Part shown: positions 17,399-62,311 of the stretch, piece by piece
How the letters are laid out: the number at the start of each line of letters is the position of its first letter
Position numbering within the stretch: the first letter of the stretch is position 1
DNA from: Hydractinia symbiolongicarpus
Lineage: Eukaryota; Cnidaria; Hydrozoa; Anthoathecata; Hydractiniidae
NCBI RefSeq assembly: GCF_029227915.1
Contig: NC_079877.1
Span: 10,046,001 to 10,110,000 of the forward strand
Direction: 5' to 3'
DNA length: 64,000 nucleotides
Made by a program: the position numbers and the translations under genes
The notes under the pieces: generated by a model
Told to the model about the DNA's origin: nothing
Databases searched by the model: none
Seen by the model: the letters and a program-made list of their open reading frames with translations, nothing else

Positions 17399-17863
17399 CT
17401 AAAATCATCACTAAAGAATCATTAATAATCAGTATATTTCTTTAAGTTCAAGAAGAAAACAATGATACTGCTTAACAATAACGATTAAAAAATAATTATT
17501 AGCTTGCAAAACCCATTAGAATGAATTCATCAATGATCGTTAATCCTTCCTTTGCTTTTTTTACCTTCTTCTTTTTAATTCTTATTATTATTTCTATAAA
17601 TAGAGCTTATTTTTTAGTATTGCTATTTCTGTGAGTCAAAATCATTTTGGTACCATTATGGTAACTAATTATGTTATGTTAAAAAATGAAAAAATTTTGT
17701 GAAATTATTTACGCATAATAATTATTTTTTGTTGTTGCCTACAAGCAATTCTCAACTACTCAAATAACTTGAGTATACTTATCCTAGTCTCTTTTATTTT
17801 ATTTTATATTATGTTACAAGTCTTAAATAATCCGAACTGCATAATTTGGTCAATTACACAGCT
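17399..17863. other. AT-rich stretch, nothing recognised
   Basis: AT-rich sequence between the candidate tail exon and the ATT microsatellite; no gene or repeat recognised. Confidence 0.4.
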
Positions 17864-18129
<266 letters not shown>

Positions 18130-20860: not shown

Positions 20861-21226
20861 CTTTCACAATCACGTATATTGGTTTTTTTGCTTGTGTCAC
20901 GTTTACAATCGGATTTATCTTCATAAAAATTACCGACAAATAAAAAACACCTGTGTCGGCATAATTCAATTTTTTAATATATAAAGCAAAGTGCGTGCTA
21001 TTCATTGTCCACTTGAATCTGTCATTAAAACTTTTTTTTTCATATCTTCTGAATCATCCTCTGGGGAAAATGTGGAACAGTTTTCTATTTGAACGTCCAA
21101 AGAAAAGTTCCATATCTAGAATCCATTCGTACCTATCATCTACTTTCACCTTCCAAACAAGCCGTGCCGTCTGGTTTGCATATTCAGTCAATCTCTTCGT
21201 TGCTGGGATTACTTGTCCACACAGTG
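20861..21226 (-). pseudogene. Ig-receptor gene 1, Ig-like domain exon with in-frame TGA
   Basis: A 366 bp exon (acceptor AAATAG, donor AAAG/gtatgt, phase 1-1) encodes an Ig-like V-set-type domain: CGQVIPATKR, NQTARLVWKV near strands B-C, and LNYADTGVFYLSV as the strand F equivalent of the canonical D-x-G/A-x-Y-x-C motif, but with no Cys. It aligns over its length with the exon at 61934-62311. One TGA after HIFPRG breaks the frame in the middle. It resembles the unusual Ig domains of hydractiniid allorecognition receptors. Exons further upstream are not found before Polinton C at 22448. Confidence 0.55.
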
Positions 21227-41947: not shown

Positions 41948-42156
41948 TTATGAATTAGCAGGAGGTACTAGTAATCTTTGATCAATCAATTCGTAATGAG
42001 GAATAAATTTTGTGGATTCCTCCACAACAGTGGGAGAAAGTTCATATCCAATCCAACTGTTTTCGGTCGAATGTACAGGAATTTCTTCATACGTAGGGGT
42101 GACAAAAAGGTCACTTAGGCTTGTGTATGTGACATTTTGTTGTTGTTCTTCATTTT
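41948..42156 (-). CDS. Ig-receptor gene 2, cytoplasmic tail exon with ITAM-like motif
   Basis: Acceptor AATCTTTGTTTTAG at 42157, then two bases and 69 codons ending in TAA at 41948-41950. It lacks an ATG, so gene finders working on ORFs miss it. The tail reads NEEQQQNVTYTSLSDLFVTP, then TYEEIPVHSTENSW, GYELSPTVVEES and HYELIDQRLLVPPANS. YTSL and YEEI are eight residues apart, fitting the ITAM consensus YxxL/I-x(6-12)-YxxL/I. VTYTSL also fits an ITIM, and YEEI is the classic Src-type SH2 ligand. A further YELI follows. Phase 1, compatible with the transmembrane exon donor at 45518. Predicted role: tyrosine-phosphorylation signalling inside the cell. Confidence 0.65.
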
Positions 42157-45086
42157 CTAAAACAAAGATTACTGTTTTTGAAGCATCAATGGTTTAAATA
42201 CAATTGTAGACAAAACTGTCGAGACAAAGGCATTTTTGATGATTGCTCAAATATGTACTAACGCATCAAATGGTCAATACTCCGCTCTAGGACGGCCCCT
42301 ACCCCCACAAAGTAAGTTTGAAATGCCTTAAGACACAGAAAAAATAGGTCACTATCAACATTGGCAATTGAGCTTTGACGAGTTAAAAATGCGGAAATAG
42401 ACTATGGAATTGCATGTCCTGACGAACATAAAAATTGGCTGTCTTGTCGCAATTTATTTTCACAAGGATTATAGCTGTACAAACTATTTGTGCTCTGCGG
42501 ATTTGGTACCGTTTTTTAAGTTATTTATTGAATTAAATATTTACACGGTATTATGAACAAACAAAAGCGAAGGAAAGGGCATGTGTTTTATATTATAGAA
42601 GTTTTTAAAAATTCATATGTGATGTGTTGTACAAAGAATATGTGAGCTATATGTTATTTTCAATATCTTCTAGAGGGTTCCAACCCTTACCTATTGATTA
42701 ACCAGTTGTCATAAGACAGGTATCATCATTGCAGCTTGCTGTTTTGTCACCTCATTTTCATTACACACAGTTGTTAACTATTTTATCAGAATGGATAAGC
42801 AAATGGGCAAAAATAAAACAATTGTGAAGGATGAAAGAGAAACTATTGTGTTTGTTTTGGTGCATCTAAATACACCCATTGAGGAATGTCTCAAAGACGC
42901 TGATACCCTATCTAACTAGAACTACTTGCCCATAGTTGTGAAACTGGCGCATGCATTGATTTCCACAACGCTCGTACCTAAGTTGGTGGCCTATATCAGG
43001 TAGGCCACGTTTAGGACTAAGCGTAGAAGACGTGGTCGTTTATCATACCGTAGGTAGGTCATAGCGCAATAGGAAGACAGGAAGTGGAAGGCGCTTTTTT
43101 GATACTGCTCAAGAACAGATAGATGAGTTGGTAACAGAAAAATGCACAACAAGGCTGTGTAATGTTACCACTGCATACTGCATAAGACCCAAGACATGTT
43201 GAACAGGGTCGTTGATCGTAGCCCCATTGCTTTAATTCTCGAACTGGCTCGTTACAACTCATATGTGTGCTTATGTGTGTCATACCCTTTCTAAAAGAAA
43301 AGATGAATGTCAAAAAGTATAACCTTAAGGTGAGGTACAAATCTAACAGGAATTCTGTCAGAGTGAGGTCAACTTTGTGCTGCATTGTGCTAATGAAGCT
43401 TAACGCATCTTTGCCAAGAAAATGGCGGCATGTTTGCTACTTATAAACACTATCTTTCAGTTCCACGTGTACTACCTTTGACGAATACCTGCACTGCTTG
43501 TACTACTGCGAGGCATCCTTGGAACAATCAAAGCGCTCATGCTTTTTATTGATAGTTCCAATCGGTGTAAGAAGCCTTACTTCACCTCTGCGTTTGCGTA
43601 GCGCGCATAGAAAAGGCTTTATGTGGGAACTACAGTAGTGTCACAATAACAGCCTTTTTTGCAGCCAAGACCTGCAGAAGGACTAAACAATGACATTGTA
43701 CCGACGGTAAAGGGAAGGGTAGAGGGAACATCCGTTGCTATGTCTTCTTATTTTCCGATGCTTAATTAAACTTGGTGGAAAGTTATCTCATAGCCTAAAA
43801 TACTGAGAGTTTCCGTAAGGTTTGGCGACGCATAAGCAATGCACAAAATGTAAACGTTTCTTGTTAAATGAAGAGCTAAGATTAGCATGTTGAAAAATAT
43901 GATTATATACTAGACGTTCAATAAATGAGCATCCGCTAAAGCCTAAGCAGAACTAAGGCTGTGAAATCACAAAAACAGTTCTGGGAAGATGCGCTAGTAA
44001 ACGCAGGAGCAACTTTGACATCGCAAAGTAACCCCATATATCGGTGCTTACCGACTCCAGGACCTTATGCTAGACCTACCTAAAACGAGTATAGGCGGCA
44101 CTCTCGCCAAATTATTAACGTCCGTCTAGCAATACGATGTACCGTAAAGTATCTTAACGTCCATTTGGGTGACATTTAACTGGTTCTAATAAATTCTAAG
44201 GACCATCTGTTTTAAAGTAGAAAAAGAGGTCTCACACTGCATTTAGATTTTTTAGAGGGTACAACCTCTACAAATTTAATTAAATAAGTTGTAAACTAGT
44301 TCCATCATTACGGCTTGCTGTTGTGTTATTACATCCCAGGAAAGCCCCCTTCTGGGTGCTCTCCTTGGATGCTGAGGACAAAGTTGACTGACTTGTTGGC
44401 TTGCAATCTATAGATAGGTGTTAAGTATAAAAATGATAGTAGGAGAAATATACTCCTTAAGGAAATAGACCTTTATTGTTTAAGGTAGAAAGAAGAAGAA
44501 GAAGCATAGTCTGTTTTTGCATTGGGTTTGTGCAACTGTATAGTTACATAATTGGCTTTTGGAATGCTTAAGTTGCTACTCCGTTTCATAACTGAAGACA
44601 AGTCAACAAGGAGTACCTCACTCAGGATCTGTCTATGACAAGCGATTGTTTCATTTTAGCTAAGTAGTTAAAAAAAGATCCAATACTATATACCAGATAT
44701 GCCTGAAATTCCCATAATCAAGTGGACAAGAAATAATAAAAAGAGTATGTCCACCATAGCGACTGTGCTGAAACAGTGTAACATAATTCCACAAACTGTC
44801 GTCACAGTCGAAATATTTTTGTTACCACTTTACATGGTAATAAAGTGGTGTTGAGGTAAAAAGGTGTTCTTATGTTTATGAAGTGGAATGGTTTTATTGT
44901 TTACTTTATTCTTCTTTATACCGTTATTTTTATTCTTCTGTATTTTATTTTTTTCACTTCTACATCAGATTAGTTTTGTTTTACTTCATCTTAACACCAG
45001 TCAATATTATGTTTTTGTTAGTGACCTATTTTAATTTATAGCTACCCTATTTTACTGAGGAATTCCCAAATCAACAATTTAATTTA
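42157..45086. other. Large intron of Ig-receptor gene 2, no gene recognised
   Basis: About 2.9 kb of AT-rich sequence between the transmembrane and tail exons. An additional small exon cannot be excluded. The open frame at 43059-43385 has no recognisable features. Confidence 0.4.
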
Positions 45087-45232
45087 CTAGTCGTTAGCCC
45101 GTGGAAAAATCCACGGGTTCGCCAGTCCTTTTTGTACCGCATTGCGTGCGGCTGGTTAACTGCGCATCTAAGCTACCATTTTGCGTGACAGACAGACGGA
45201 CGGACAGGCATACACGGGTATTATAATGTACA
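45087..45232 (-). repeat. Short Helitron-like (HINE-type) repeat, copy a
   Basis: Minus strand: TATAATACCCGTG near the 5' side, the hairpin CCCGTGGATTTTTCCACGGG, then CTAACGACTAG followed by T at 45086. It is directly preceded by copy b. Confidence 0.6.
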
Positions 45233-45407
45233 CTAGTCGTTAGCCCGAGGAAAAATCCACGGGTTCGCCCGTCCTTTAAATTTACCCGTCGCAACAAAGT
45301 GGACAAAAATAAATCGCATTTGATATTTGTGTTTCCGTAACATCATTTTCTAACTCAGCAGGGGTCCGCACAGAGACAGACAGACGGAATACGGCTATTA
45401 TTAAAGA
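45233..45407 (-). repeat. Short Helitron-like (HINE-type) repeat, copy b
   Basis: Minus strand: TCTTTAATAATAGCCG at the 5' end (45407), a hairpin CCCGTGGATTTTTCCTCGGG near the 3' end, then CTAACGACTAG ending at 45233, immediately followed by copy a. Head-to-tail arrangement. Confidence 0.6.
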
Positions 45408-45517
45408 GATTTGTCCTAAAGGTAGTTTCATTTGAAGTAGGCATATTAAAGAATTTGAACATGGTTTTACTTTTAACACGATCACATAGTCAATTAATAA
45501 ACATTACGAGCACCTAC

Positions 45518-45649
45518 CTCGTAAGAAATTTCTTCTGGATAAATATATAAACAATAAAATGATAATTATGAAAGACAGAACTGATAAAACGACAAGAATA
45601 TAAAACTTTAATTGCTTCTTGTTTGAGGTTTCATGACTGTGTCCTGGCC
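45518..45649 (-). CDS. Ig-receptor gene 2, transmembrane exon
   Basis: Acceptor ATTATTTCTAG at 45650 and donor ACGAG/gtaggt at 45518; 132 bp, phase 1-1. It encodes a short hydrophilic lead (PGHSHETSNKKQLK), a membrane helix of about 22 residues (FYILVVLSVLSFIIIILLFI) and a basic stop-transfer (SRRNFLR). No ATG, so it is not seen as an ORF. The donor matches that of the transmembrane exon of gene 1 (20390). Joins in frame to the stalk exons upstream and the tail exon downstream. Confidence 0.65.
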
Positions 45650-45846
45650 CTAGAAATAATAAACCAAATGGAATCAAAGTGATCTATCGTTGCCCTTCAT
45701 CAAGAACAAAATGTCTTGTCTCATGAAAGAGAAGTGATAAAGCAACTTTAGCGTACATTACAGAGTTTTCGGAATGTTGGTATTAGTGGATATTTCTCTT
45801 TTTTAGTGTTTTAAAAGTACAAAAATATAAACATTAAATGTCTTAC

Positions 45847-45912
45847 TTGGAAATGTGGTAAGTACACTCTCGCTTATTTTTTGAGATAAATGTTTCCATT
45901 TCAAAGTGTTTT
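45847..45912 (-). CDS. Ig-receptor gene 2, stalk exon 7 (last before membrane exon)
   Basis: Acceptor ATACTTTAG, donor CCAA/gtaaga, 66 bp, phase 1-1. Encodes NTLKWKHLSQKISESVLTTF. Same layout as the other stalk exons: Asn-Thr-Leu-x-Trp-Lys start and a Thr-rich end. Confidence 0.6.
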
Positions 45913-46052
45913 CTAAAGTATATAAGTTTATAGATTAAAATGTATAACGATTTTCACGTACACTTTCGCTTATTTTTTGAGATGAATGTTTCCATTTCAA
46001 AGTGTTTTCTAAAGTATATAAGTTTATAGATTAAAATGTATAACGATTTTCA
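45861..46052. repeat. 96-bp tandem duplication carrying a stalk exon
   Basis: Two units (about 45861-45956 and 45957-46052) over 95% identical duplicate the 5' part of the stalk exon at 45847-45912 and its upstream intron. Confidence 0.8.
45958..46008 (-). CDS. Ig-receptor gene 2, duplicated stalk exon 6 with a new donor
   Basis: The duplication unit lacks the original donor. A cryptic donor GTAC/gtgaaa would end the exon after 51 bp and still keep phase 1-1 (NTLKWKHSSQKISESV). Whether it is used cannot be told from sequence; skipping would also keep the frame. Confidence 0.4.
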
Positions 46053-46084
46053 CAATAAAAAAGGTTTTATCCAACCCATCTTAC

Positions 46085-46156
46085 CTAAAGTCATAGTTGT
46101 GGTAAATGATCTTTGACTTATGATCCGAGACGTATCTTTCCATGCTAATGTGTTAT
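46085..46156 (-). CDS. Ig-receptor gene 2, stalk exon 5
   Basis: Acceptor TTATTATTAG, donor TTTAG/gtaaga, 72 bp, phase 1-1. Encodes NTLAWKDTSRIISQRSFTTT then MTL. Thr-rich extracellular stalk segment. Confidence 0.6.
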
Positions 46157-46272
46157 CTAATAATAAAGGGGAACTTGTTTAATAATTTCTAAGAAGAAGT
46201 CAGATTCGGAGAGGCTCATAGATAAAAAAAGAAATTTCTCGAAAAAAAAAAAGTTGGTCCAGTTCATCTTAC

Positions 46273-46343
46273 TTAGAGTTAACTTGTGGTAAGTGGATTT
46301 TTGCTTACATTTCAAGAAGAACTTTTCCACACCAATTTGTTTT
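46273..46343 (-). pseudogene. Degenerate stalk exon
   Basis: Sequence matches the stalk exons, but the acceptor AG is lost (TTAT), the length is 71 bp (one base short), and a stop appears in the expected frame. The donor AA/gtaaga is kept. Probably skipped. Confidence 0.55.
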
Positions 46344-46470
46344 ATAAGCTGTATAAAAGTGGGAAGGATTAAAAGTTTGCTGTATAACATTAAATCTATA
46401 TTTATAAGGTGTATATTTTGAAATAAAATATATTTTCAGAATAGAAAAAGTTAAATCCAACTTATCTTAC

Positions 46471-46542
46471 TTAAATTTACGCTTGCGGTAAGTGAGTTTT
46501 TGCTCATAGTTCGAAAAGAACCTTTCCATAGGAATGTGTTTC
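46471..46542 (-). CDS. Ig-receptor gene 2, stalk exon 4
   Basis: Acceptor ATATACACTAG, donor TTTAA/gtaaga, 72 bp, phase 1-1. Encodes NTFLWKGSFRTMSKNSLTAS then VNL. Last stalk exon on this side of the transposon stack. Confidence 0.6.
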
Positions 46543-47097
46543 CTAGTGTATATAAATCAATAAAAAAATTAAAGAAATAAAAAAGAAAGAAAGTTATTGT
46601 ACATAACGGTATATTTAAACTGAACATTTACCAAGAGAAATTCTAGGCATAATAGAAGTTGCATTCCGACCAAAACCAAGCTAAGAATCAAGAGAGAGAA
46701 AATTTGTGTGCACTTCGGTTACGGACCTCGAGAACACATCAAAAACTATAATGGCGGTTCAAGGTGCGATCCCGTGGCTCGGATATCATTTTTTGCAACA
46801 AAGATGCTAACTCCAATTGTAAATTGTGTGCGCCATTTCCACCTATTAAATGATGATATGGGAACAACAATCTGGACTGGTAAATCCTCAAATGTGAGTT
46901 TGTGTGTAATGCCGATGTTCATTACACAAAAGACTTACAAAAGATCTGCTCCTAATTTTTATCTTATTTTAACTCTTTTTGTTGCTATGTTGACTTTGCG
47001 CTAGTGCACAAAATCCCCATACATACGGCCGCACCTCTTGATTCTTCGCCTTGGATGAAGTCAAAATAATAATTAAAGAGGTATATTTTTATAAATA
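46543..47097. other. Intron sequence left of the transposon stack
   Basis: No supported gene. A possible stalk-exon relic ending SIMPRISL lies at 46632-46680 with a donor, but its start phase does not fit. Confidence 0.35.
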
Positions 47098-47498
47098 CAG
47101 TAGATGTCCGTTAATTCGAACACGCAAGGGACTGAATTATTTGTTTCGAATTAATGAATGTTCGGATTATCGGAAGTTCAGAAAAAACAAGAATGTTAAT
47201 AAACGTTTACAGGTTTTATGCTAATATAACTTTATTACAACTTTGCTACAACATTTTATAGAAATCTTTAATGTTGTTTGCTTAGCGATGGGCGAGGCCC
47301 CCAAATTCCTTGTAAACTATATTTTATTTGATTAGTTATTATATATTTATTCATTAAAAATAATTACAATATAATTAAAATTAAAATATAAATAGACTAA
47401 GGTTAAAGTAAAACTTTATTGTCAAAGGCTATAAGTCACACGAGTGTTTGACTGAATAGAAGAGAAGTGTGCATTGGTGACTAAACAAAATAAAAACT

Positions 47499-47735
47499 TT
47501 ATATTCTGGCATCTACACAGGCAAGATCAAAATCATTCACCACCTCTGTGTGCAACTTGGTATTTAAGGATCTGGAAATTCTAAGGCAAAGCAAAGCAGA
47601 TTTCATTATTACGAAGGAGAGTTTACATCTCATCCAAGTCATTATCTTATCGTATTGTTCGCCGGATTTCTGTGAAATTTTTTCTGCGAGAAATTTGTGA
47701 AATACAGAACATTCTTTACAGATAAAAAAACTCAC
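47499..47735 (-). pseudogene. C-terminal end of the R2-like RT protein, separated by LINE insertion
   Basis: ECSVFHKFLAEKISQKSGEQ, YDKIMTWMRCKLSFVIMKSA, LLCLRISRS. This continues the protein that breaks off at GMSK (52798) on the far side of the LINE. It ends with a stop at 47499. Confidence 0.55.
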
Positions 47736-48000
47736 ACTGTTTCTAGGTCCCTGAGTTTAAGGTCCCTGAGTTTAAGTTTAAGGGAAAAGTATAACTAACA
47801 AAGAGAGTCAAAAGGTATATAAGACAGCACGGTGAAGGCTGTACCAATCCGGTAAACCAGCCCTACCAGTTTAACACTTGCTGTGAAAGTGAGAAATTAT
47901 AACCGGAAAGGCTGTAACCGGTAATCAGCCCTACCAGCTTATTAACATTTGCTGTGAAGTTTTTGGTTAGAGTTGAATTGGTGAGCTTTGTCCTTAAACT

Positions 48001-48660
48001 ATGTCTGCTTTCAAATCTAAATGTGAAATACCAGCTCGACGAGAAAATAGACCAACCTGGTATAAAACTCACGTAAAGCTGAATGAAATTTTGAAGAGTC
48101 GTAAACCCGAAGTAATTTTAATTGGTGACTCCCTTGTGTCTAATTTGTCAAGGTGCAATGCTGTATGGGACAACTACTTCACACCACTCAATACCACCAA
48201 CCTTGGTATTGGTGGGGACAAGGTAGAAAATGTATTATGGCGAGCTTTAAATACCAACCTTCCATCATCCTGTAAGACTGTAGTCATTCTTTGTGGTACC
48301 AACAACCTACATAACAGTGTACCTAAAGACATTGCGGATGGTGTAACATCTATAGGTATCTCGCTTCGTAAGAAAAAAGCAAACTTGAGGATTATTGTGT
48401 GTGGAATTCTACCTCGTGATTTCCATATTTCTAACTTATGGAGAAAAATAGATGATGTCAACTGTTCTTTGAGTAAAATTTGTACAAAGAAAAACCTTGA
48501 GTTTTTAATGCCAGAAACGGATTGGGTATGTAGAGACAATACTCTAAATATGTCTCTGTACTATGGGGATTGCTTACATCTAGTCAAGAAAGGTAATGAA
48601 AAGTTGGCCTTATCTATTACTTCGGCCATCAAGATAAACGCTAGTAGGATAAATGTTTGA
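48001..48660 (+). CDS. LINE ORF1: SGNH/GDSL-type esterase, 219 aa
   Basis: Intact frame. Block I is VILIGDSLVSNLSR (nucleophile Ser), block II is a Gly in GIGGDKVENVLW, block III is CGTNNL (Asn), and block V is YYGDCLHLVKKGNEKLA (Asp and His). Esterase ORF1 proteins are known in CR1-clade LINEs, where they are thought to act on lipids or membranes or as RNA chaperone partners. The start ATG 48001 gives the expected length. Confidence 0.8.
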   Translation: MSAFKSKCEIPARRENRPTWYKTHVKLNEILKSRKPEVILIGDSLVSNLSRCNAVWDNYFTPLNTTNLGIGGDKVENVLWRALNTNLPSSCKTVVILCGTNNLHNSVPKDIADGVTSIGISLRKKKANLRIIVCGILPRDFHISNLWRKIDDVNCSLSKICTKKNLEFLMPETDWVCRDNTLNMSLYYGDCLHLVKKGNEKLALSITSAIKINASRINV

Positions 48661-48684
48661 ACTAGTGAACATAACTGTAAAAAG

Positions 48685-48978
48685 ATGAACAATACAACCA
48701 AAATACCATTTATATTTCATGAATGTGATTATGTTCATCAACCTCCAGTAAGTGCACAAACTGAAATTCCTATTAGAAACGAAAAAAGGCTGAAAAAGAA
48801 ACGCGAAAAAACAGTAAAACTAAAAACTGTGAAACGAAAAACTAGTGAACCTACTCGTAAAAAGGTACCAACAACGACAAGTAATACGGAACTTAACAAC
48901 TTGTTTCGTGATAAATTAACACAAGGTAAAAGGAAAACGCAAACCAAAATTTTAATTTTCATTTATTTTTTAACATAA
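48685..48978 (+). other. Short basic open frame between LINE ORFs
   Basis: 97 codons, strongly Lys/Thr-rich (RLKKKREKTVKLKTVKRKTS). It may be part of the LINE inter-ORF region or a linker. No domain recognised. Confidence 0.3.
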
Positions 48979-49254
48979 TTTTCTGTTTGTTTTTTATTAA
49001 CTGTTCAATTTCAATTTTGAAAATATTAAGCCTGAATTTGTAAATAGCACTATATTAAATAGTAAGACAATTTTACCTGTTCATAAATTATTATTCTCAC
49101 CTTTTTATATTTATAATCAAACCTTTGACGGTTTGAAAGGAGAAAAAACAGTATTAACCTGCAGAAAGAACTGGCCAATAACAATGCAAACATCTACATT
49201 CCTGAAAATATTTTTATATTTTTCGTCTTCATCATAGTTAACTTTCTTAAAGTT

Positions 49255-52200
49255 ATGAGCTGTAGAAAGAGAAACTTATTGCTTGCATCAGCTGGTTGTT
49301 TCTTTCGAATTGCCATAGTTACACTTGTTGTACATAGTTATCACAATGAAGTTTGTAAATACTCCAAACTTGAGCGTTGTAACAAATCATCTTTCTTCGT
49401 GCCTGAATCTGTAGCTCTTTGTAACGAAATTACTAATAAGAACTTAGAAACTAACATCAAGTACTATATGTTGTCTTTTCTTGTTTTAAGCAGGAAAAAC
49501 CAGACAAACTATCTTTGTTCATTGATTCTTCTTTCTGGTGACATAAGTCTAAACCCTGGCCCTCCTGTGGATATGACAACTGTGAATGAGGACTGGAACG
49601 TGTTCAAGAAGCGAGGGTTTCATATGGCTCATGTCAACATTAATTCGCTTTTACCTAAAATTGATGAACTTAGCGTTCTCAACTAAAATAGCTATTATTG
49701 GTATAACAGAATCTAAACTAGATAATACTGTAACAGATTCTGAGGTATCTATTGAAGGCTATAACCTCCTTAGATGTGACAGAAACAGGCATGGAGGAGG
49801 TGTTGCTTGCTTTATTAGAAATGATATTTGTTACAATTCTCATAAGCGACTTTCAGAAAATTTGGAATGTGTCATGTTTGATGCTTTATTTCCTAAAACA
49901 AAGCCTTTCACTGTTGGAGTGTTTTACAGACCACCAGATCAAAATAATTTTGTCAATAATATTTCAGATGAATTTACTACATTAGATTTTGATGAGAAAG
50001 AATTCTATCTCTTGGGAGACTTTAATATCAATACTCTTTGTAATGGTAGAAGTATTTTTAAAATGAATAAGACAGCACTTAAGAGTGATCATGTCTCTGG
50101 ATTGCAAAAGCAATATGTAGAATTTTGTTCGCTTTATGGCCTTAAACAATTGATTGTTGAGCCTACAAGGGTAACTTGTGCTACTGCAACAGTTATTGAC
50201 CACTTTTTAGCAAATTGTGTTGGTAAAGTTTCTCAAAGTGGAGTTTTAAATGTTGGACTATCAGATCACCAAGTGATTTTCTGCACCAGAAAAGTCAAAA
50301 AAGTCAAGTTTCATACCCACAAACATATCAAATTTCGATCTTTTAAAAACTACACAAAGGAACAGTATCAGGGTCTCCTAAGGGATACAAACTTTCCAAA
50401 TTATAATGAGTTCACGGCCTACTCTGATTTTTTGACAAAACTAATGTCAGTAATAGATACTATAGCACCTACTAAAGAGGCCAGAATTAAATGCAACTCC
50501 CAGGAATGGTTTGATGGTGAGATTGCAGACAAGATTGCTACTAGAGATAAACTTTTTAAAAAGTTTAAGAAGTCAAAATTACAAATTGATTCTGACCTCT
50601 GGAATGAAGCAAAAAGTAATGTGCAAAATTTGATCAATAAAAAGTAAAAAGAATACTATAAAAACAAAATAACAGAAAACACAGGCAAGCCTAAGGAACT
50701 ATGGAAGACTTTAAAGTCTATGGGACTTGACAACTCAAAGAAGTCAGATCCGAACTACTGTCTAAAGGATGAGGATGCCTTACATTTTGATACAAAATCA
50801 AAACTAGAGATATTTAAGAACTTTTTCTCTGGTCTAGCAGATGGGCTGCTTCAAAATCTTCCTAAGCCCTCAAATAGATTTGGGATAAATGCTGTCATCT
50901 CATATTACAAATCGCTAAACATTGGAAAAAAGATATTCAATTTTCAGCAAGTCTTAGAAGAAGATGTGCTGAATTTGCTGAATGATACTAGTACAACAAA
51001 AGCACCAGGACTTGATACTATATCTGGAATTTTCTTGAAGGATGGTGCTGATGTTCTCTGCAGACCAATAACTCAATTATGTAATCTTTCTATCTCACTG
51101 TCATCTTTCCCTAGTGAATGTAACATAGCTAAACTTAAGCCACTATATAAGAAGGGATCAAGAACTGATCCAAAGAATTACCGCCCTATATCTTTGCTTC
51201 CTCTTTTTTCTAAAATTATTGAAAGAGTGGTCCATAACCAAACACAAGCTTTCTTAGACGAAAACAATATATTATTTAAATTTCAGTCTGGCTTTAGAAG
51301 CTGTCATTCAACAGATTTTTGTCTATCATATATACATGACAAAATTTCAAAAGGTTTTGATGCAGGCTTGCTGTCTGGTATGATCCTCATTGACCTACAA
51401 AAAGCTTTCGATACCATCAACCACTCCATACTTTTGGAAAAATTAGGAACTCTTGGATTTTCAAATGAAGTAATTCTTTGGTTCAGGTCTTACCTTGCAA
51501 ATAGAACATTTTGTGTGTCAATAGATAACTTATCATCTAATCCAGGTAAACTGGAATGTGGTGTTCCCCAAGGTTCTATCTTGGGTCCACTTCTGTTCTT
51601 ACTTTATGTAAACGATATGCCACAAGCTTTAATACAATGTGATCTTTTTCTCTACGCAGATGATTCATGTCTCTTATTTCAACACAAAGACATAACTGAG
51701 ATGGAAAATGCTCTTAAAACAGACTTCAGTAATTTATGTGATTGGTTTGTGGACAACAAACTCAGCATACACTTTGGTGAAGATAAAACTAAGTCTATTC
51801 TTTTTGCCTCCAGGGGAAAAATTAAGAAAGCAGAAAAACTTAATATTTCCTACAATGGAGTAGAAATCAAGCAGCATACGAAAGTTGAATATCTTGGTTG
51901 CATCTTTGACCAATCACTGTCTAGTGAGTCAATGGCCTTACATGTGATTAACAAAATTAATGGCAAAATTAAATTTCTTTATCGTCAAAGCTCATTTTTG
52001 AACAAGGATCTGCGACGACTTCTCTTTAACTCTTTAATTCAACCACATTTCGACTATGCCAGTACTGTGTGGTATCCAAACCTGACAAAAGTTTTAAAAA
52101 AGAAGCTCCAGGTTGCTCAAAACAAATGTGTTCGCTTCTGTTTACAAAAAAGTAACAGATCACATGTAGGTGCTACGGATTTTAAGGAAATAAATTGGCT

Positions 52201-52525
52201 ACCAGTTGGCGAAAGGTTTAAAGTATGCGTAAACAATCATGCATATAAATTTTTTTAGAAAAAATGTCCTCTGTACATGTCTGATGTATTTATTCCATCA
52301 AGTCATAGAAGAGCTTCGACTCGTTCATCATTCCAGAGGCTTGAACAATCTTGTGTAAAAACATCCCAAGGTCAACAGTGTCTTTCCTACCTTGGACCCT
52401 CCTTATGGAATACTCTTCCTGAGGGTCTTAAAAGATCTAGTACTACAAACAGTTTTAAACACAACCTAAAAAAGCACTATTTTGATGTTATAACGAGAAG
52501 GGACTCAGATGATTTTGTGAATTAA
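49255..52525 (+). pseudogene. LINE ORF2: 2A-like peptide, AP endonuclease, reverse transcriptase
   Basis: Open 49255-49686 has a hydrophobic start and a 2A-like ribosome-skipping motif, LILLSGDISLNPGP (about 49522-49563; canonical Glu before xNPGP is Ser). The endonuclease starts HMAHVNINSLLPKID; a frameshift at about 49670 leads to IIGITESKLD and YRPPDQ and LLGDFNI. The frame then continues with one TAA at 50645-50647 and one TAG at 52256-52258. The RT has the motifs KNYRPISLLPLFSKIIERVV, LIDLQKAFDTINH, GVPQGSILGPLLFLLYVND and FLYADDSCLLF. The C-terminal part is open to 52525. Reverse transcription at nicked target DNA is its known role. Confidence 0.85.
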
Positions 52526-52797
52526 ATTCATATGATCTTTTGATAATCCTTTTGTTTTCGTTTTGCTTATCTTTTTTTCTATAAGGGTAGAAATGGACCA
52601 CAATGGAAATCTCGCCTTGGCTTGTTTTGTGCTATCCAGCCATCAAACATATCAACACTCAGGAAAGTTGCATTTAATTTTTTTTATATTTTTTATGATA
52701 CATTTTAATAATATATATAGTTTATTATTTTATTTATTTGTTTTCAATTTTTCTCTGTAAATATTTTTAACGATTTTATAATGATGGCAAATATAAC

Positions 52798-55549
52798 TTA
52801 CTTGCTCATTCCCGCGTTTATGGAAAAGACAAGTGGGGTGAATGTGCCATGTTCGTTATCTAATACACGCTGATTGTATTTACGTTTCTTTTCAGCTTCA
52901 TGCTTCTTATATATCTTACTAATTGACGTTTCAATTTGCGATGGGGCATTTACATTGGTCAAACGTACATCGAAGTAAGCAGACTGTCCTGGACACCAAA
53001 AAACCCTGGCTCTTACATCAAGCCTTGCTTCATCGTTGTTGACTGGTGAAAGCTTTGGCTCAATTTCCACATCATTACAAACGTTTTGCAACAAATTTGA
53101 TTCAAAATCACGTACGTTGTTATGACGCATGGTCACAAAACCGCCTTTTTTACAGCACATGGCATGGGTGGCATTGAAATCATCTCCGCACGCACATTTT
53201 GATGGAAGATTTTTCACTGAATGATTGTATCTCAGCGCAAGTGCATCTTGAAACTCTTCCTTTGTAAGATCAAAACCTTGCTCCTTTAATGGTAAAACGT
53301 TAAGCCAGCTCGAGGCACCTTTTTCACTATTCTGTTCCATTGCCCGTATCTTACTCCTATTCAGCTGATTGTTAATTAACATTTCGTCTTGTTTTTGAGC
53401 TTCCCTGACAGCGTTCTCACGACTTTAAGCTTTAACTCGTTTTGTTTCATCTTTATTCGGAAGAGAATCAGTCTTAGCAATGGTGGCAGCAGTGATGATT
53501 TTTGATGACTCGTAATTGACGGCGGCACTTTCTGTTAGTATTGGTATTCCAATGCCGCCAGTTTTTATCGATTTTTTGTAAAGAGCTCTTTCACTTTCCG
53601 AAATGGTGTTGCCCAAAAGAGATGGTAAAAACATATCGGATATGATCGTATCTAGAGGTACTGAATATTCTTCCATACCGGGTATTGTACGCATGAAATA
53701 TGTAAATTTGTTTAACTCGCCATGTGTAAGAGCGGCAAAGGCTGCTTGCGGTTCTGTCAACGCTATTGTTGAAAGTTTTTTTTATTTCTTCACACCATTC
53801 ACTAGTTTTGTTATTTGCATATTCATCACGAAACTCTTTGCTTCCAATTGAAGCTCCGAGATGTCGTTTTCCTGTTGTCGTAAATTGTATTGATGAGTCG
53901 CTAAAATCTTTCTGGCTTCAAGTTCAATCGCTTCACTTTTACAAATCATCCATGATTTACTCTCGTTGACGTAATAACCGTAGTTTTTTCTTTAATTACA
54001 CCGTCCCACCACTTTTTCAAGCCAATAATTTTACCGGCACCAGTTGCATCATCTGCCAGCCATACCTATTTCACATCTGCAGCAGATTTTAGACGTTCTT
54101 GCAATAACACAGTACTTAAGGCATAGAAGGACATCGCAAGGTTATCACCTTGAGTTGTCCCTTCTTGCGACAAAATCTCCTTCCCATCGCCGATAATAAG
54201 ACGCGAAGGACTGCGGTATGTATTGATAAGCACAATTGCGAATTGAGGACAAATGTACATTTTTTGCGTCAACTAAAATAACGGCATCGGCATAGAGTGT
54301 ATGGCTGCTTCGGCACCACTTTCTAGTCCAGTTGCTACTTGTAACGGACCAGCAGTTGTTTGGATATCAATTTTTAATACCCAGCTTAACACTTTACCAA
54401 TAATTCTACGTAATATTTCTCCGATCCCTATCGGTCGAATACCGGGATTTTTGTCCAACGGAATAAGTTTGCAAGCGACGCACGCTTCTAAAGATTTCGG
54501 ATCGATGATTTCAGTGGCTAATTTTTTTGCCATAGAAGCAATGTGTTCGCATAATTGCCGCCCTTCATGCTTGTATTTATTGCTACACAGAATGTTTCTA
54601 AATTGTTCTGCGTCGAATATTGATGAACCTGGAGCACTCTTGGTCTGGCGAGCAGCTTTCTTAATCATGTCAGCATTTATGTTATCAAAATAGAAATTGT
54701 GAACTTCTGGTACTGGACCTTGAAGCAATGTTTCTTCTTGAACAGATGCTGGATCTGGATGTTTATTCTTCAATTCGTGAATCGTTTCATCTGTTGGAGG
54801 TAAAAATCCCTGATTATCATCATCAGATAATATTTTCAATGCAGCAGAAACCTTTCCTTGCATCATTAGCTTTGCGAAGGTTTTTGGTGTGTCCTTTTTG
54901 TGTCGTTTGTTGCTAGCACGCATTCGTTTTTGAATTGTGCGTCCTTCTTTTTGTAATAATTCAATCTTACCGTCTTTCCAAAGTTGAAACCGTTCAGCTA
55001 ACTTTGAATTGTGTTCTTTTGCTTTGCTCTCCCTCGATGGTTTTTGAAGAAGAAGATTTGGTAAAATCATAAATACTTTTAACGCGATTCGATGGAATTT
55101 CGTGTCGCGATTAAATTGGTCGATCCAGAAAGATAGTTCATTTATAAATAATTTAGATGATTTCCCTGAGGTAAGAAAAATAAATTTTCCATCCAAAATA
55201 TCGTTTCATTGTAAGCATTGTTCACAAGGCTGGTAAACACATCGCCTGTAAGATTGTTTACAATAGAATTGGATGTTAAATGCTCTCGCTCAGTGAATTT
55301 CGGAAAGTTTAATAAAATTTCTCGTCCGTTAATTCTGGTTGACATTTCTTCCTCCGGGCATAAGGTTTCAGGGCAGTTGATGGTTTCCACGTCTTCACCA
55401 TAATCACATGCGACATTAACGTTCAAACTGTTATTAACACGTCTGCTATAATAACTTTGTTTTCGTTTACAAGAGTACATATGAATATTAAGTCCCTTGA
55501 GGCTGTCAAATGTACGTTTGCAAATACGGCAAGTGTGAACCATGGTCAT
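52798..55549 (-). pseudogene. Non-LTR-type reverse transcriptase gene of R2-like layout, broken
   Basis: N-terminal C2H2 finger (CRICKRTFDSLKGLNIHMYSC, 55142-55549). A helical region, then KLIPLDKNPGIRPIGIGEIL (54273-55196), RT motif A remnant VILVDAKN, motif B EGTTQGDNLAMSFYA, motif C WLADDATGAG (near 54040). Then TQPQAAFAALTHGELNKFTY (53425-53760), and a CCHC-like CACGDDFNATHAMC with an endonuclease-like ARLDVRARVF...YFDVRLTN (52798-53382). Several frameshifts. C2H2, RT, CCHC and a restriction-like endonuclease region in this order resemble R2-group elements; the clade is uncertain. The last part lies at 47499-47735 beyond the LINE. Confidence 0.6.
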
Positions 55550-55766
55550 AAAATCTTTATAAGAGCAATGTTGAACTTTTTATAAAAAAATTCTGATTAT
55601 CAAATTTGCAACTCTGATTTAACTTTCCTCAATACAACGATAAAATAACAAAAGTTAACAAGCAATCTACCATTCTGTTGTTCTATAAATAATTGCGATC
55701 AATCTTTGCACATAAGACACAAATTTTAACTTCAATTTTGAGTAAACACTTCAAACGAGCAAGCAG

Positions 55767-55966
55767 TGTGAACATTTCAGCCATTTCAGCCACTTGGGGG
55801 TAATAAAATAAACAAATACGAAAATGGTTTTTCTTCTATATAAAATCAACAAACACGTGTTTCTTCTTTTACACTTTTAACTCTACCATCTTTAGTCCTA
55901 ATGCCGTTCTAGTTAAACGGCACCGAGAGTCTAGCAAACAAAAACAAATATGGCGGCAATCTAACA
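55767..55966 (-). repeat. Copia 3' LTR, 200 bp
   Basis: Minus strand: starts TGTTAGATTGCCGCC at 55966 and ends GTTCACA at 55767, preceded by a purine tract (GTCAAGTGGGGG, 55967-55978). The last 97 bp are identical or nearly so to the truncated 5' LTR at 59811-59907. Confidence 0.75.
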
Positions 55967-55997
55967 CCCCCACTTGACGTAAAGTTCTCATTAAAGA

Positions 55998-58900
55998 TTA
56001 CTCTCCAAATAAACATTGTTTGAACATTGTCAACAAATGTTTTTTTGGCGGTTTTGTAAATATATCCGCTTTGTTTTCACTTGAAGGTATATATTCTACA
56101 GCTATCTGATTCTGTTGAAAACATTCTCTGATATAATGGTATCGGATATCGATATGTTTGGCCTTCATGTGCTTTACGGGGTTTTTCAATAACGCTAAGG
56201 CACCTTGGTTGTCATTTTTAATCACAGGCGGCTTGAGGTCAAAATTTGTTAAATCTTTGATAAGTCGTGTTAGGTAGGCGGTCTCCTGAGCTGTTAGTGA
56301 GAGGGCTATATATTCAGCTTCGCACGTTGAAAGTGCCACAGACGCTTGTTTTTTCGACCTCCAACTGTTAGGTGGCCCACTCGGATTGATGCTGATACAA
56401 TAACCGGTAATACTTCTTCTGTTATCCAAAGAAGAAGCCCAATCAGCTTCACAAAATGCATAGAGACGAAATTCTTCATGGTTTAGTTTACGAAAAGTGA
56501 ATGTATAACTCACAGTATTCTTTATATATCGAAATACATGTTTTAACATAATCCAGTCTGAATTTTCAGGCTTTGACAAGTGTTGAGACAGCTTAGTTAC
56601 AACATAACTCAAATCTGGTCGGGAGCAAGTCATGGCATATACAATGCTTCCTACCATTTGACGATATAGTTTGGTGTCGTTATTGGTCTTCTCAGTATCA
56701 CTGGTCTCATCTAATATATATGCGGCAGGGTTTTGTTCGCATGGGGTATTCCTCGGTTTACAATCATTGAGACTGAATCGGATAAGGACATTTTTAAGGT
56801 AACAGGACTGGGACATGGTGACGTAGTCAATCCCCCTCTCAAAATCAATTCCAAGAAACGATGAGAGTGTTCCAAGATCTTTCATATTAAATCGATTCTT
56901 CAACTGGATCTTGACAGTGTTAAGCAGTTCGTCCTTACTTGATGTAATAAAAATGTCATCCACCCAAACAAGTAACACCGTGGTATAACCACATTGTCTA
57001 CGAACAAACACAGATGGATCGGCATGAGATTGGACAAAACCAATATCACATAAAAAATCATGCAGCAATTGGTGCCAATTGCGTCCACTTTGTTTCAGCC
57101 CATAAAGAGATTTATTTAACTTCCAAGCATTATTGGCTATTTCATATCCAGGAGCTGGTTGAACATAAACTTCACATTCTATTGGAACGTGTAAATATGC
57201 TCCTTTAACGTCCATTTGATGAATGTTCCAATCTGTAGTAAAGTACGGATAGATTCCATTCTAGCAGTTGGTGAAAAGGTTTCTGAGTAATCTATATCTT
57301 CTTTTTGACTGAATCCTTTTGCTACATAACGCGCTTTGTAAATTGGGTTGCTTGAATTGAGCTTCAAAGAGTTGATTTCTTCTTCCATCGCGCTTATCCA
57401 TTGATCTGCGTCATCTTGTTGAATTGCGTCATTGTATGTGTTTGGAACATTCAGATAACAACAATCATAATCGGTGTCTGCAAAATGACTACAGTGATAA
57501 TCAGCATATCGTGGTGGAGCTTTGCGTTCCCTAGTTGGGTATCGAGCCTCCGGATTTCTCTCTGGGTTCTCATTTTGTTCTGAACTACTTTTTGTAGCCG
57601 GTTTAGTATTGGCTTCAGTTGAAAATAAGTCATTGATGATGGCTGTGTTCGGCTCTTCGACATGAAATTTTTCCGTAAATTTTACAAGTCTATGTCTTGA
57701 TACAGTCCTGCTGTCGGAATAGTAAACTAGATAGGCTGGACTCTCTTTGTCATACCCGACAAAAATTCCTTTACGGCTTCTTGACTTGTCCAGTTTCTTT
57801 TGATTATGGACGTATGCATAACATATTGTACCAAAAACATGTAATCTTGTGATGTCAGGTTTTAGTCCTGTGATAAGACCATATGGTGTTTCTCTGATGC
57901 GGTCTACAAAACAACGATTTCGAATATGTGTAGCAGCCATAACAGCATATGTCCATAAATGTTTAGGTAAGCTAGCTTCAAGTAACAATGCTCTTCCCAT
58001 TTCAAAAAGGGTGCGCCAGCTGCGCTCTGCAGTGCCATTTTCATGAGGAGAATGTGGAGCAGAGATTTCGTGTTTGATACAGCGTTTTGTTAGGACAGTT
58101 TTAAAGTCCTGTGATATGTATTCCCCACCCCCATGCGATCGCATTCGTTTTACATCACTAAATGGAAAAATTTCTTCGTCAAAATTAAAGGTTTTCACTT
58201 TGCCGTAGGGCGCTATGTCTGCTAAAAATTTTTCTAATGCACGGGACGCATGAGATTTCTGTTTTAAAAAATAAGTAAACATACATCCTGTGAAATTATC
58301 ATTGAAAACAAGAGCATATCTGAAGCCATTCAGTGACGCTGGTTCTATTGGTCCGGCTAGGTCGGTGTGTAAAAGTTCGAAAGGAGTCGTGGCACGGATG
58401 TCTGGCTGACGATTACGAGTGTTGGTCTGCTTTGCTAGTGTACATACCTCACAGTCAAATTTTTCTCGTTCACTGATGTGCATTCCTTGAACTACAGATT
58501 CTAATTTTATCACATCATCAATATTACAGTGTCCTAATATTCTGTGCCATGTTCTCAAATCTTCTATGCGTTTTTGGCTCACATTATTTTTGTACAGATA
58601 GTATAGTCGTTGGCGTTGTTCGACTGGAAAGATTGTTCCATCTGGGGCAATGAGATTAGCATGATCATTGGAGAAGTTGACAACAGCACCTTTACGGGTT
58701 GCGGCTTGAACAGAAAAAATATTTTGAGGGTAAGTTGGTACATACAGTGCGTTTTCAAGGTTAACTTTAACTAGTTCTCCACTTTCTGTACGTAAGTATG
58801 TGACATATGTTCCACTTTTCAATGCAACATTGTTTGATTTGCTCCCATCTGCCAAATCTATATAATGTTCAGCTGGTTTGAAGTTGTTATCAATTTCAAT

Positions 58901-59710
58901 CATATTTTCTTCAGAATTCACTATATGGGTTGTTGCTCCACAGTCCACGAGTAGTGTCTCACTACCATTAATTTTCATACTGGAGTCATCATTAATCTTG
59001 AATGCAAAAGAATGACTCTGATTATTATCACTCATCGACTTGGCCTGGTCACGGTTTTGTTTTCGGCAGTTACGGTTCGAGTGCGATGAGGATCTACAAA
59101 CGGTACACCATTGTCGCCGACATTCACTCGCTTTATGTCCAGCAACTCCACAACTGTAACAAATGAGTTGTTTAGATAAATATTCATTTCGTGCTTTCAT
59201 AATAGCTTCATTTTTATTAGCTTCTGGGTTTGTAGATCGGGCAGTTTCAGTTTCATCAAAGTTTTTCAGAGCTTGCTTGAATTTGTGAAATGTGTCTACA
59301 GTTTCGGATTGTGTTATAATAGCAACAAAAGCTTTGTACTGATCGGGGAGTCCCTTGAGTACCATTGCAATTAACAAAGCATCACTGACAGTCTCACCAG
59401 CTGTTTTCAATGTGGCTGCAGCTTTTTCTGCCCTCATTATATAATCAGTTACTGATTCATTGTCACTTTTCAACAATGTTGTAAGTTGGTTGTATAGGGT
59501 AATTATTCTCGGCTTGCTACTTCCTGAATAAAATTCTCTTAGTATTTTGAACGCCTTTCTTCCATCATCTTTTGCTTCACGAATGACCATTGACAAAGAA
59601 CGTTCATCTAAAAATTGTATAAGTTCTGCAAATGCAAGTTCATTTTTATCTAGATCAATTTCGATACTACTAGTTCCAACCAAAGTGTCTTTAAGTTCCT
59701 TGACTCTCAT
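55998..59710 (-). pseudogene. Copia gag-pol polyprotein, frameshifted in RT
   Basis: ATG 59710. Gag (UBN2 type) with LLKSDNESVTDYIMRAEKAA and two CCHC knuckles (CYSCGVAGHKASEC, CTVCRSSSHSNRNC). Protease LLVDCGATTHIV. Integrase HHCC (WHRILGH, CEVC) with catalytic Asp in LHTDLAGP. The second should be in RSDGGGEY but reads RSHGGGEY, and the Glu region is HENGTAERSWR. RT begins YKARYVAKGFSQKEDIDYSE. A frameshift near 57200 leads to 55998-57215 with WVDD (LLVWVDDIFITSS) and RNase H (CEADWASSLDNRRSITGYC; LSTCEAEYIALS). Typical gene order gag-PR-IN-RT-RH of Copia. Confidence 0.9.
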
Positions 59711-59796
59711 GTAACCTAAAATCTTTGTTTCCCATATCTCTAATTTTCGTTCATCCCCATAAAAAAATCAAGTTCTGCCACTGGTTTCTTGGTGGA

Positions 59797-59810
59797 CTGG
59801 GCCCATAACC
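59797..59810 (-). promoter_or_regulatory. Copia primer binding site (half initiator tRNA-Met)
   Basis: GGTTATGGGCCCAG on the minus strand, directly after the LTR end ACA. It is the complement of the anticodon arm CTGGGCCCATAACC of initiator tRNA-Met, as in Drosophila copia, not of a tRNA 3' end. Confidence 0.75.
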
Positions 59811-59907
59811 TGTGAACATTTCAGCCATTTCAGCCACTTGGGGGTAATAAAATAAACAAATACGAAAATGGTTTTTCTTCTATATAAAATCAACAAACAC
59901 GTGTTTG
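59811..59907 (-). repeat. Copia 5' LTR, 97-bp remnant
   Basis: Same as the 3' half of the LTR at 55767-55863. Upstream 103 bp are missing and replaced by the pogo-like end. Confidence 0.8.
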
Positions 59908-60012
59908 GGACTAAGAAATTGTTCGAATTAGCAAAATGTTCGAAATAACGGAAATTCGAATTGAGCGGCCTTGGAATTAACGGAAGTCTACTGTATAAAA
60001 AATTCATCTTAC

Positions 60013-60084
60013 TTAGTGTTATCCTTGTGGTAGCTGGTTGCTTATTGGTAGTTCGAAAAGAACTTTTCCATGCCAATGTGTTTT
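60013..60084 (-). CDS. Ig-receptor gene 2, stalk exon 3
   Basis: Acceptor TATACATTAG, donor CTAA/gtaaga, 72 bp, phase 1-1. Encodes NTLAWKSSFRTTNKQPATTR then ITL. Lies 18 bp from the right edge of the transposon stack, which separates it from stalk exon 4. Confidence 0.6.
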
Positions 60085-60200
60085 CTAATGTATATAAATA
60101 AAACGTTGCATAAAATTAATCAAGCATTCACAAAAAATTGTTTAAAAATAACACAAATGATCTTCGTAATACCAATAATTTAATTTAAAAAAAATCTTAC

Positions 60201-60263
60201 TTGAAGCCATATTGGTGGTAGGTGGTGTCTTGATCATTGGCGTGCTTTTCATTAATGTTTTAT
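60201..60263 (-). CDS. Ig-receptor gene 2, stalk exon 2
   Basis: Acceptor TACTTTAAG, donor TCAA/gtaaga, 63 bp, phase 1-1. Encodes KTLMKSTPMIKTPPTTNMAS. More diverged than the others, missing the Trp. Confidence 0.5.
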
Positions 60264-60486
60264 CTTAAAGTATGCAAATACAAAAATTTTATGGAACAGT
60301 TACAAAAGTTAAATTTGAACTAAAGATTCAAGCCGCGTTCAAGTCTATGTATTTCTACAGGTAGGAAACAGCTTATGTAAAAAATACATAAATGGAATAA
60401 AGAATTCAAACTCAAAAGAATTATAGATAAAAAAATAAAACCTCTTGTTTTTCTAACAACAAACATTTTAATCCGATCCATCTTAC

Positions 60487-60558
60487 TTAAAGTCATGGTT
60501 GTGGTAAGTGGTGCCTTGCTAAATGTTTGAGGCCAAGTTTTCCATACCGATGTTTCTT
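60487..60558 (-). CDS. Ig-receptor gene 2, stalk exon 1
   Basis: Acceptor TATGTTTATTTAG, donor TTTAA/gtaaga, 72 bp, phase 1-1. Encodes ETSVWKTWPQTFSKAPLTTT then MTL. First stalk exon after the Ig exon. Confidence 0.6.
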
Positions 60559-61500
60559 CTAAATAAACATATATAAGTACAACAAAGGGAGAAAAACTAC
60601 AAAATGTTACATTCGCATCAAGCATTTACCACAAAACAAGAAACTCGACGAAAACGTTAAGTTATGGATATACTTTTTTTATCTTAAGATAACTGCGACA
60701 TTTTTATTATTCTTACAATATAACAGTATAATAATAATATAAGTTTTGAGTTTTAATAGAAACAAAAGCGGTAGATATATCTAAAATCTAGGCCATCTGT
60801 TAAAGTTGGATAAATGGCAACGTCATAAAATAACCTTTAGACCTCCGTGACGACTAAACAAATTTTCAAACGATTTCGTGCGTATGGGCATCTCATTACC
60901 GACCTAGTGATTTTAGTTCCTTTAAACCCTTAAATAAATTTTTAAAAGTTTAAAATGAAAAGTTCTGAAATTATACAAAAAATTCCTTTTTTATTATGTG
61001 CGGACATTGCGGACAATTTTTAGAACATTTTTTGATCATCTGCGAAAATAAATTCCCAAAAAATAAATTTGATTAACCGACAATAAGTACAACTTTGACT
61101 TACTTTTGTAGCTATAAATTAATTTGGTTCAAACTGTGGTCTAAAAGAACTGATTTTTTTTATTTTGAAGTTACTTTTTGTGTGTTTTTTTTACATTTTG
61201 GATAAAATATTGTAGCTAGTAGATGGAATATGCCAAATACTAGGTTATTGAATTTAAACGTTGATTTTTTACCCTTTGTGTAAACTTTTGTGGACGAGGA
61301 CGATGTGTACGATACGTAATAACTAAATTTTAGTTGATTTTCATTTTACGGGTTGTGGCAATTCAAATTTTGTGATAGATAATGTCGTGTAATATATTGA
61401 AAGGACTTAGTCTCGTGTTATAGGTTTTATATTTGAAACTATTTGTTAACGGTGTAAGTTAGATAAAAAAAAAAAAAAAAATTCATGCAGAATTCGAAAG
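60559..61500. other. Intron sequence between Ig and stalk exons
   Basis: AT-rich with no recognised gene. Confidence 0.4.
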
Positions 61501-61527
61501 TCCCTTTAGAATAATTTCTAATGGTTC

Positions 61528-61570
61528 TCGACGGGCAATACCGCTCCATATCGGCCCGTCGTCAAGAGCG
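61528..61570. repeat. Palindromic MITE-like core
   Basis: TCGACGGGC and GCCCGTCGTC-type arms enclose ATACCGCTCCATATCG. It is followed by GAGCGTTAGTCCAATCAGAT, a context I associate with cnidarian MITEs; the full element ends are not found. Confidence 0.35.
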
Positions 61571-61775
61571 TTAGTCCAATCAGATTGCCTAAAAACCCGT
61601 ATTACGCACTTGAATAATCCTAACGGTTAACAAATACCTGTACTGAAGCGCTCCACCTGGGCGTATGGCACAGTTTATGGCTCTTATTAAGTACTCCACC
61701 CGGCGTTCAACATCGATCGGCTTACACAGTTACTTGTGGTTTAATTCGGTGTTTGGACGCCGTGTCCCTGGTTAG

Positions 61776-61909
61776 TCTCTATAATAATAGGAGCATTCTG
61801 TCTGTCCATTTGTGCGCGAGAAAAAAATGTCGTGGTACGAAAACACAAAATGAGCTATATAAAGGACGTGCAAACCCGTGGATGTTTTCACGGAGTACAT
61901 TTTAGTACC
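61776..61909 (+). repeat. Short Helitron-like (HINE-type) repeat
   Basis: Starts TCTCTATAATAATAG, includes a GTCTGTCC block as in 45087-45407, and has a 3' hairpin CCCGTGGATGTTTTCACGG near 61874-61892. The exact end is uncertain. Confidence 0.45.
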
Positions 61910-61933
61910 AAGAATAATATACTCAAAGCAAAC

Positions 61934-62311
61934 CTTGTACGTTTAAAAGTATTGATTTTACTGCGTGCGTTACTTTGAGTCTTGGATTGCTCTTTCCAAA
62001 AATTACTGATAGAAAAAAAATATCTGCGTCAGAATACTTCACTTTTTTGATCAATAACATGACAGGCGTACGATTTAGCATCCAAGTAATCCTATCACCA
62101 AATCTTTTACTTGGAGGATGAATGATCATATTCGGCGAGGATGAAGTTGCACGGTAGGTGTAGAGTATTTTTCTCTCCGGATTCCCAAAGATCATATGCA
62201 CATACGAAATGAATTCGCCAATATCTGGTATAACATTCCAAAATAGCCTTGCTGGTTGGTTAACATACACTGTCATACTTGCTGTTCTTGGTATTACTTG
62301 TCCGCAAAATC
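61934..62311 (-). CDS. Ig-receptor gene 2, Ig-like domain exon
   Basis: 378 bp, phase 1-1 (acceptor ACCATATAG, donor CAAG/gtttgc, the donor being weak). The open frame includes FCGQVIPRTASMTVYVNQPA, RLFWNVIPDIGEF, and KVKYSDADIFFLSVIFG, an Ig strand-F equivalent without the canonical Cys. It aligns end to end with the broken exon at 20861-21226. The nearest known relatives in layout are hydractiniid Alr allorecognition receptors (single-pass, Ig-like ectodomain, stalk, signalling tail). Extracellular ligand binding, possibly homophilic, is inferred. The signal peptide exon was not found with a matching phase. Confidence 0.6.

Follow-up and report, generated by a model that had tools for sequence, protein, structure and literature searches.

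A probable Alr-type receptor gene with a mini-exon stalk and an ITAM-consensus tail on chromosome 3 of Hydractinia symbiolongicarpus

Hydractinia is one of the few invertebrates with known self/non-self recognition genes, and the route from recognition to signalling is still an open question in this animal. The allorecognition complex has been placed on chromosome 3 (PMC11876637, PMC13119343), Alr1 and Alr2 are regarded as adhesion molecules that bind homophilically (PMC11876637), the Alr proteins are unusual V-set and I-set receptors from no fewer than 41 loci, another 44 models being considered pseudogenes (PMC11067881, PMC11999971), and Hydractinia candidate allorecognition proteins contain immunoreceptor tyrosine-based activation and inhibition motifs (ITAMs and ITIMs), the genome also encoding their signalling partners (PMC12065747). 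Here we describe a gene on the minus strand of a 64,000-nucleotide stretch of Hydractinia symbiolongicarpus chromosome 3 (C3:10046001-10110000, hereafter the window, in whose positions coordinates are given unless marked otherwise). The gene, at ~10.088-10.112 Mb, is probably a divergent Alr-type receptor gene, in which a predicted signal exon lying a little beyond the window is followed by a single cysteine-less V-set immunoglobulin (Ig) domain, five mini-exons that form a stalk, a membrane helix and a tail of 68 residues that carries an ITAM-consensus pair. Neither the receptor type nor the ITAM is new, since Alr receptors with such domains and motifs are already published; what is new, relative to the annotated relatives P0001-P0005 (from four genes, P0004 and P0005 being isoforms of one), is a mini-exon stalk that replaces the second Ig domain and spacer.

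Eight minus-strand exons over 41948-62311 can be joined into ~357 open codons with all junctions in phase 1, and the joining confirmed the stop-free frame that an earlier note on this DNA, made from the letters alone, had proposed for the Ig, stalk, membrane and 69-codon tail exons. From 5' to 3' they are the V-set Ig-like exon of Alr domain-1 type (61934-62311, 378 nt), the stalk mini-exons S1 (60487-60558), S2 (60013-60084), S3 (46471-46542) and S5 (46085-46156) of 72 nt each and S7 (45847-45912) of 66 nt, a transmembrane exon (45518-45649, 132 nt) and a cytoplasmic tail exon (41948-42156) of 69 codons, including the stop codon TAA with which it ends. The splice sites are, as the earlier note had it, consensus or near-consensus: the donor is gtaaga in all five mini-exons and gtaggt at the membrane exon, and an AG acceptor is present at every exon of the model, with the tail acceptor tttgttttag/AAAATG (slashes mark exon boundaries) leading into E-N-E-E and a tail start at 42156, in agreement with the NCBI protein described below. 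Beyond the window, at 66267-66219 (chromosome 3: 10112267-10112219), is a candidate signal exon, the sole strongly hydrophobic one among five candidates with allowed donor words. Two other exons were considered and dropped, namely a first exon immediately upstream of the Ig exon, with an ATG at 62426, whose donor leaves phase 2, and a second tail exon between the membrane and tail exons (44476-44655, minus strand), which has an open frame with an ITIM-like NYVTIQL and, by eye, no phase-compatible acceptor.

The relation to the Alr family is carried by the Ig exon. Scored against annotated chromosome-3 proteins of the family type, the exon matched Alr-type first domains with a best E-value (E) of 9.7e-8, and P0001 matched it by tblastn in a local database (E 1.8e-9); first-domain identity in the aligned set was 26 to 31%. 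The exon encodes a single cysteine, at residue 2, and lacks the canonical cysteine pair, the places of which are apparently taken by Trp 24 and Leu 100 (assigned by eye), both invariant in both alignments. Likeness to Ig-like folds, which the earlier note had set as a test, was found by structure prediction, where the exon is predicted to adopt a V-set fold (in a model rebuilt with a more varied alignment, the first having a predicted local distance difference test score, or pLDDT, of 63.6). The Pfam V-set profile gave 17.4 and 17.9 bits, under the cut-off of 26, a PDB sequence search with the exon returned just four antibody light chains (E 0.95 to 1.8), and a scan of viral contigs found no relative. 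Taken together, the organism and chromosome, the Ig-exon homology, the shared exon phase, the cysteine-less pattern and the predicted V-set fold support the proposed Alr-like identity. In a genome search with P0001, in which 95 of 196 candidates were scored, 125 of the 127 matches listed fell on C3, where they span 10.92 to 23.46 Mb, with one each on C6 and C10, and the nearest other match among those listed was at 10.92 Mb, 0.81 Mb from the gene. More distant matches among those listed lie at C3 15.3-15.7 Mb and 23.4 Mb, perhaps in other Alr-type clusters.

At the other end of the gene, the membrane exon encodes a core of 19 residues, YILVVLSVLSFIIIILLFI, with a mean hydropathy of 3.2 and no charged residue. 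The tail motif, YTSLSDLFVTPTYEEI, holds YTSL, eight residues, YEEI and then YELI, exactly as had been noticed before, and fits the ITAM consensus YxxL/I-x6-12-YxxL/I. A pair of this type occurred in 2.0% of shuffled tails, 2.2% with the window composition and 0.8% with a general protein composition, and in 6 of 303 open 68-residue chunks of the window; at ~2% by chance, the tyrosine motif was rejected as proof by itself. An ITAM-consensus pair is found in three of the five relatives (P0001-P0003, as YTGL-x9-YADL or YANL) and is absent from P0004 and P0005.

The stalk mini-exons encode variants of ENTLxWKxxxRTxSKxxLTTxxTL, ~24 residues each. Since the four 72-nt copies pair with each other by tblastn within the 64 kb (E 7e-6 to 0.03), their likeness is not due to chance; a matrix built from them gave these copies scores of 64.5 to 70.5, and among 184 open 72-nt candidates in the DNA examined the next score after theirs was 2.5, which, as the four copies score themselves, is no independent test. 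Mini-exons flank the 13.5-kb intron between S2 and S3 (46543-60012) on both sides and thereby tie the Ig end of the gene to its membrane end. Across the genome, a DNA search for the mini-exon array picked up just three places, all at the present locus (two candidates were scored, and no match does not show rarity). The second Ig domain or spacer of P0001, P0002 and P0005 had no match in the window at E <= 1e-3, only the first domain matching, and judged by sequence the stalk is different from the spacer of the relatives examined.

Two decayed paralogs, both on the minus strand, allow constraint to be compared along the gene. The first is an Ig exon with an in-frame TGA (20862-21224), near which nothing convincing was matched by queries with the stalk and the tail; the second is a tail with two stops, 26.7 kb upstream (C3:10114669-10114848, or 68669-68848 in window coordinates), in which YEE is kept. 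Nonsynonymous (dN) and synonymous (dS) divergences were calculated by NG86 and are averages over copies, some of them dead, with dS high. Between the Ig exon and its paralog the three codon positions differ 47, 33 and 61 times over 119 codons (dN 0.45, dS 1.26), between the two tails 21, 18 and 22 times over 62 codons (dN 0.36, dS 0.76), and among the four 72-nt mini-exons (S7 left out) 45, 46 and 49 times summed over six pairs. The gradation in constraint that we draw from the codon-position counts and from dN and dS runs from the Ig exon, with a mild signature of protein selection, through the tail, with less, to the stalk, which has none by codon position, yet whose exons changed less than their surroundings (34% of mini-exon bases differ, against 66% and 46% in ungapped flanks). 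The stalk probably does no more than set reach and flexibility, as constraint on protein sequence left no trace in its codons.

Part of the gene is already present in the standard annotation as NCBI LOC130635627 (P0006, 138 aa), which was unmentioned in the literature searched. This protein reads MTL/ENTLKWKHLSQKISESVLTTFP/RPGHSHE...NFLR/ENEEQQQ... and consists of the final three codons of S5 followed by S7 and the membrane and tail exons, and it shows the predicted residues at the junctions. Three of the seven model junctions (46085/45912, 45847/45649 and 45518/42156) are thus found in the NCBI gene model, and the remaining four, that of the Ig exon included, are absent from it. The gene, most of whose exons lack ATG and are missed by ORF scans according to the earlier note, is therefore not wholly missed, its 3' part being annotated. 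A protein search with a first joined query, which included a signal-exon guess since dropped, gave no match. We infer that splicing joins all the exons into a single receptor, and the comparison suggests that the annotation carries just its 3' part; counts of complete Alr-type genes may therefore be low.

Several points weigh against an intact receptor. LOC130635627 begins inside S5 and the Ig exon is in none of the listed NCBI proteins of ~69 to 670 aa, and for these reasons an Ig-to-tail transcript is unproven. The Ig-exon donor, AAG/gtttgc, is the weakest splice site of the model, two of the seven mini-exon copies are dead (S4, at approximately 46273-46343, with its acceptor lost, an in-frame stop and one base short; S6, at approximately 45960-46008, near-identical to S7 and without a donor side), both nearest paralogs carry stops, and the first ITAM tyrosine is gone from the paralogous tail. 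The ITAM pair alone is a chance event of ~1 in 50, BLASTP of membrane and tail against P0001 and P0002 gave nothing significant (best E 0.11 and 0.86), and the genome search with P0001, with 95 of 196 candidates scored, did not list the present Ig exon. The divergence values also call for caution: they average over copies, some of them dead, at high dS, dN is about equal to dS between mini-exon pairs (0.36 to 0.56 against 0.30 to 1.0), and a second method, for which the Ig pair has no value, gave 0.37 and 0.59 for the tail. Moreover, 44 Alr-like models are counted as probable pseudogenes (PMC11067881). The gene could accordingly be a decaying Alr-type relic in which transcription is confined to the 3' part and the Ig exon has fallen out of use, as the short NCBI model, the Ig exon's absence from the listed proteins, the two dead mini-exons, the stops in both near paralogs and a family rich in probable pseudogenes would all fit. 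We nevertheless regard decay as unlikely, given ~357 open codons in eight exons with usable splice sites, an Ig exon that is also open in P0007 (one sequence from a second dataset, which may be another individual or species) with 9 of 114 residues different, and the third-position excess in the Ig exon, with a dN/dS of ~0.36 as an average over both copies.

If the gene does encode an intact Alr-type receptor, a question separate from the relic and adaptor alternatives is whether its tail, instead of activating, inhibits or simply serves as a docking site. A loose ITIM can also be read in the first motif, as VTYTSL; against this, the paired YxxL/I motifs stand eight residues apart, which is ITAM spacing, and pYEEI is a classic Src-family SH2 site, so that a non-activating tail seems doubtful. 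Finally, the 138-aa model might be correct as it is, a short membrane protein that, like DAP12 or FcR-gamma, has an ITAM tail and serves other receptors as an adaptor, but while LOC130635627 indeed holds only a stub, a membrane helix and the tail, this is highly improbable, as the model starts within a stalk exon without a signal peptide, its membrane core is without the acidic residue that DAP12-like adaptors need for pairing, and its phase is shared by the mini-exons and the Ig exon upstream.

The surroundings of the gene are rich in mobile elements. Within the S2-S3 intron lie a probable plus-strand long interspersed nuclear element (LINE; 48001-52522), with frames resembling a GDSL-type esterase, an endonuclease and a reverse transcriptase that may belong to a single element, a minus-strand copia-type long terminal repeat element (56001-59767), with gag, integrase and part of a reverse transcriptase in one frame (57182-59767) and a second frame at 56001-57260, and further, unassigned frames at 52.8-55.6 kb. 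The region 1-36000 has dense long frames on both strands, several of them look-alike, and resembles nested large Polinton-type DNA transposons; the plus-strand frame 2845-3231 matches an integrase core, and five other frames of this region had no Pfam match when tried. A long simple repeat at 17807-18220 is read as runs of isoleucine, tyrosine or leucine in the three forward frames.

As an Alr-type receptor, the gene product would work at the contact between colonies. Its V-set domain may bind a partner on the cell it meets, perhaps in the homophilic manner ascribed to Alr1 and Alr2; clustering could then let a Src-type kinase phosphorylate YTSL and YEEI, and a tandem-SH2 kinase might bind the phosphorylated pair and give an activating signal. 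The earlier interpretation is in this sense partly supported, with its signalling through SH2 proteins still one that we infer from the motif. More tentatively, an Alr-type lineage may have swapped the second Ig domain and spacer for a symmetrical phase-1 mini-exon array, in which copies could be duplicated, lost or skipped by alternative splicing with the frame kept intact. The distance spanned between cells, and hence the ITAM signalling threshold, would then be tunable and may differ between colonies; we put this forward as a speculation. A receptor that combines a single V-set domain and a variable stalk with an ITAM of its own would make a simple test case.

The closest systems for comparison are the chromosome-3 Alr-type genes LOC130635747, LOC130635745, LOC130635760 and LOC130635737, which like the present gene have a cysteine-less V-set first domain on a phase-1 exon. 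P0001, with exons in the order D1, D2, spacer, TM and tail (its signal exon placed through near copies), likewise has a separate membrane exon and a tail in one exon. Unlike the present gene, these relatives have, by sequence, a second Ig domain and spacer, features typical of those examined and not known to define the family, the isoform P0004 being without the second Ig domain; in the three scanned (P0001, P0002 and P0005) this domain gave weak I-set matches under the Pfam cut-off. Alr1, Alr2 and the 41-gene family of the allorecognition complex (Huene et al. 2022, PNAS) are likewise single-pass Ig receptors with unusual V-set domains and a chromosome-3 location, and ITAM and ITIM motifs are reported in the family; polymorphism and homophilic binding stand on the Alr side of this comparison. 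CgIgIT2 of the Pacific oyster is, by its description, also an Ig receptor with a membrane domain and an ITAM of its own, whereas it has five extracellular Ig domains. The mammalian ITAM receptors and adaptors such as CD3 and DAP12 have the same motif spacing as the present tail, and differ in that here the ITAM lies in the receptor chain itself, behind an uncharged membrane core.

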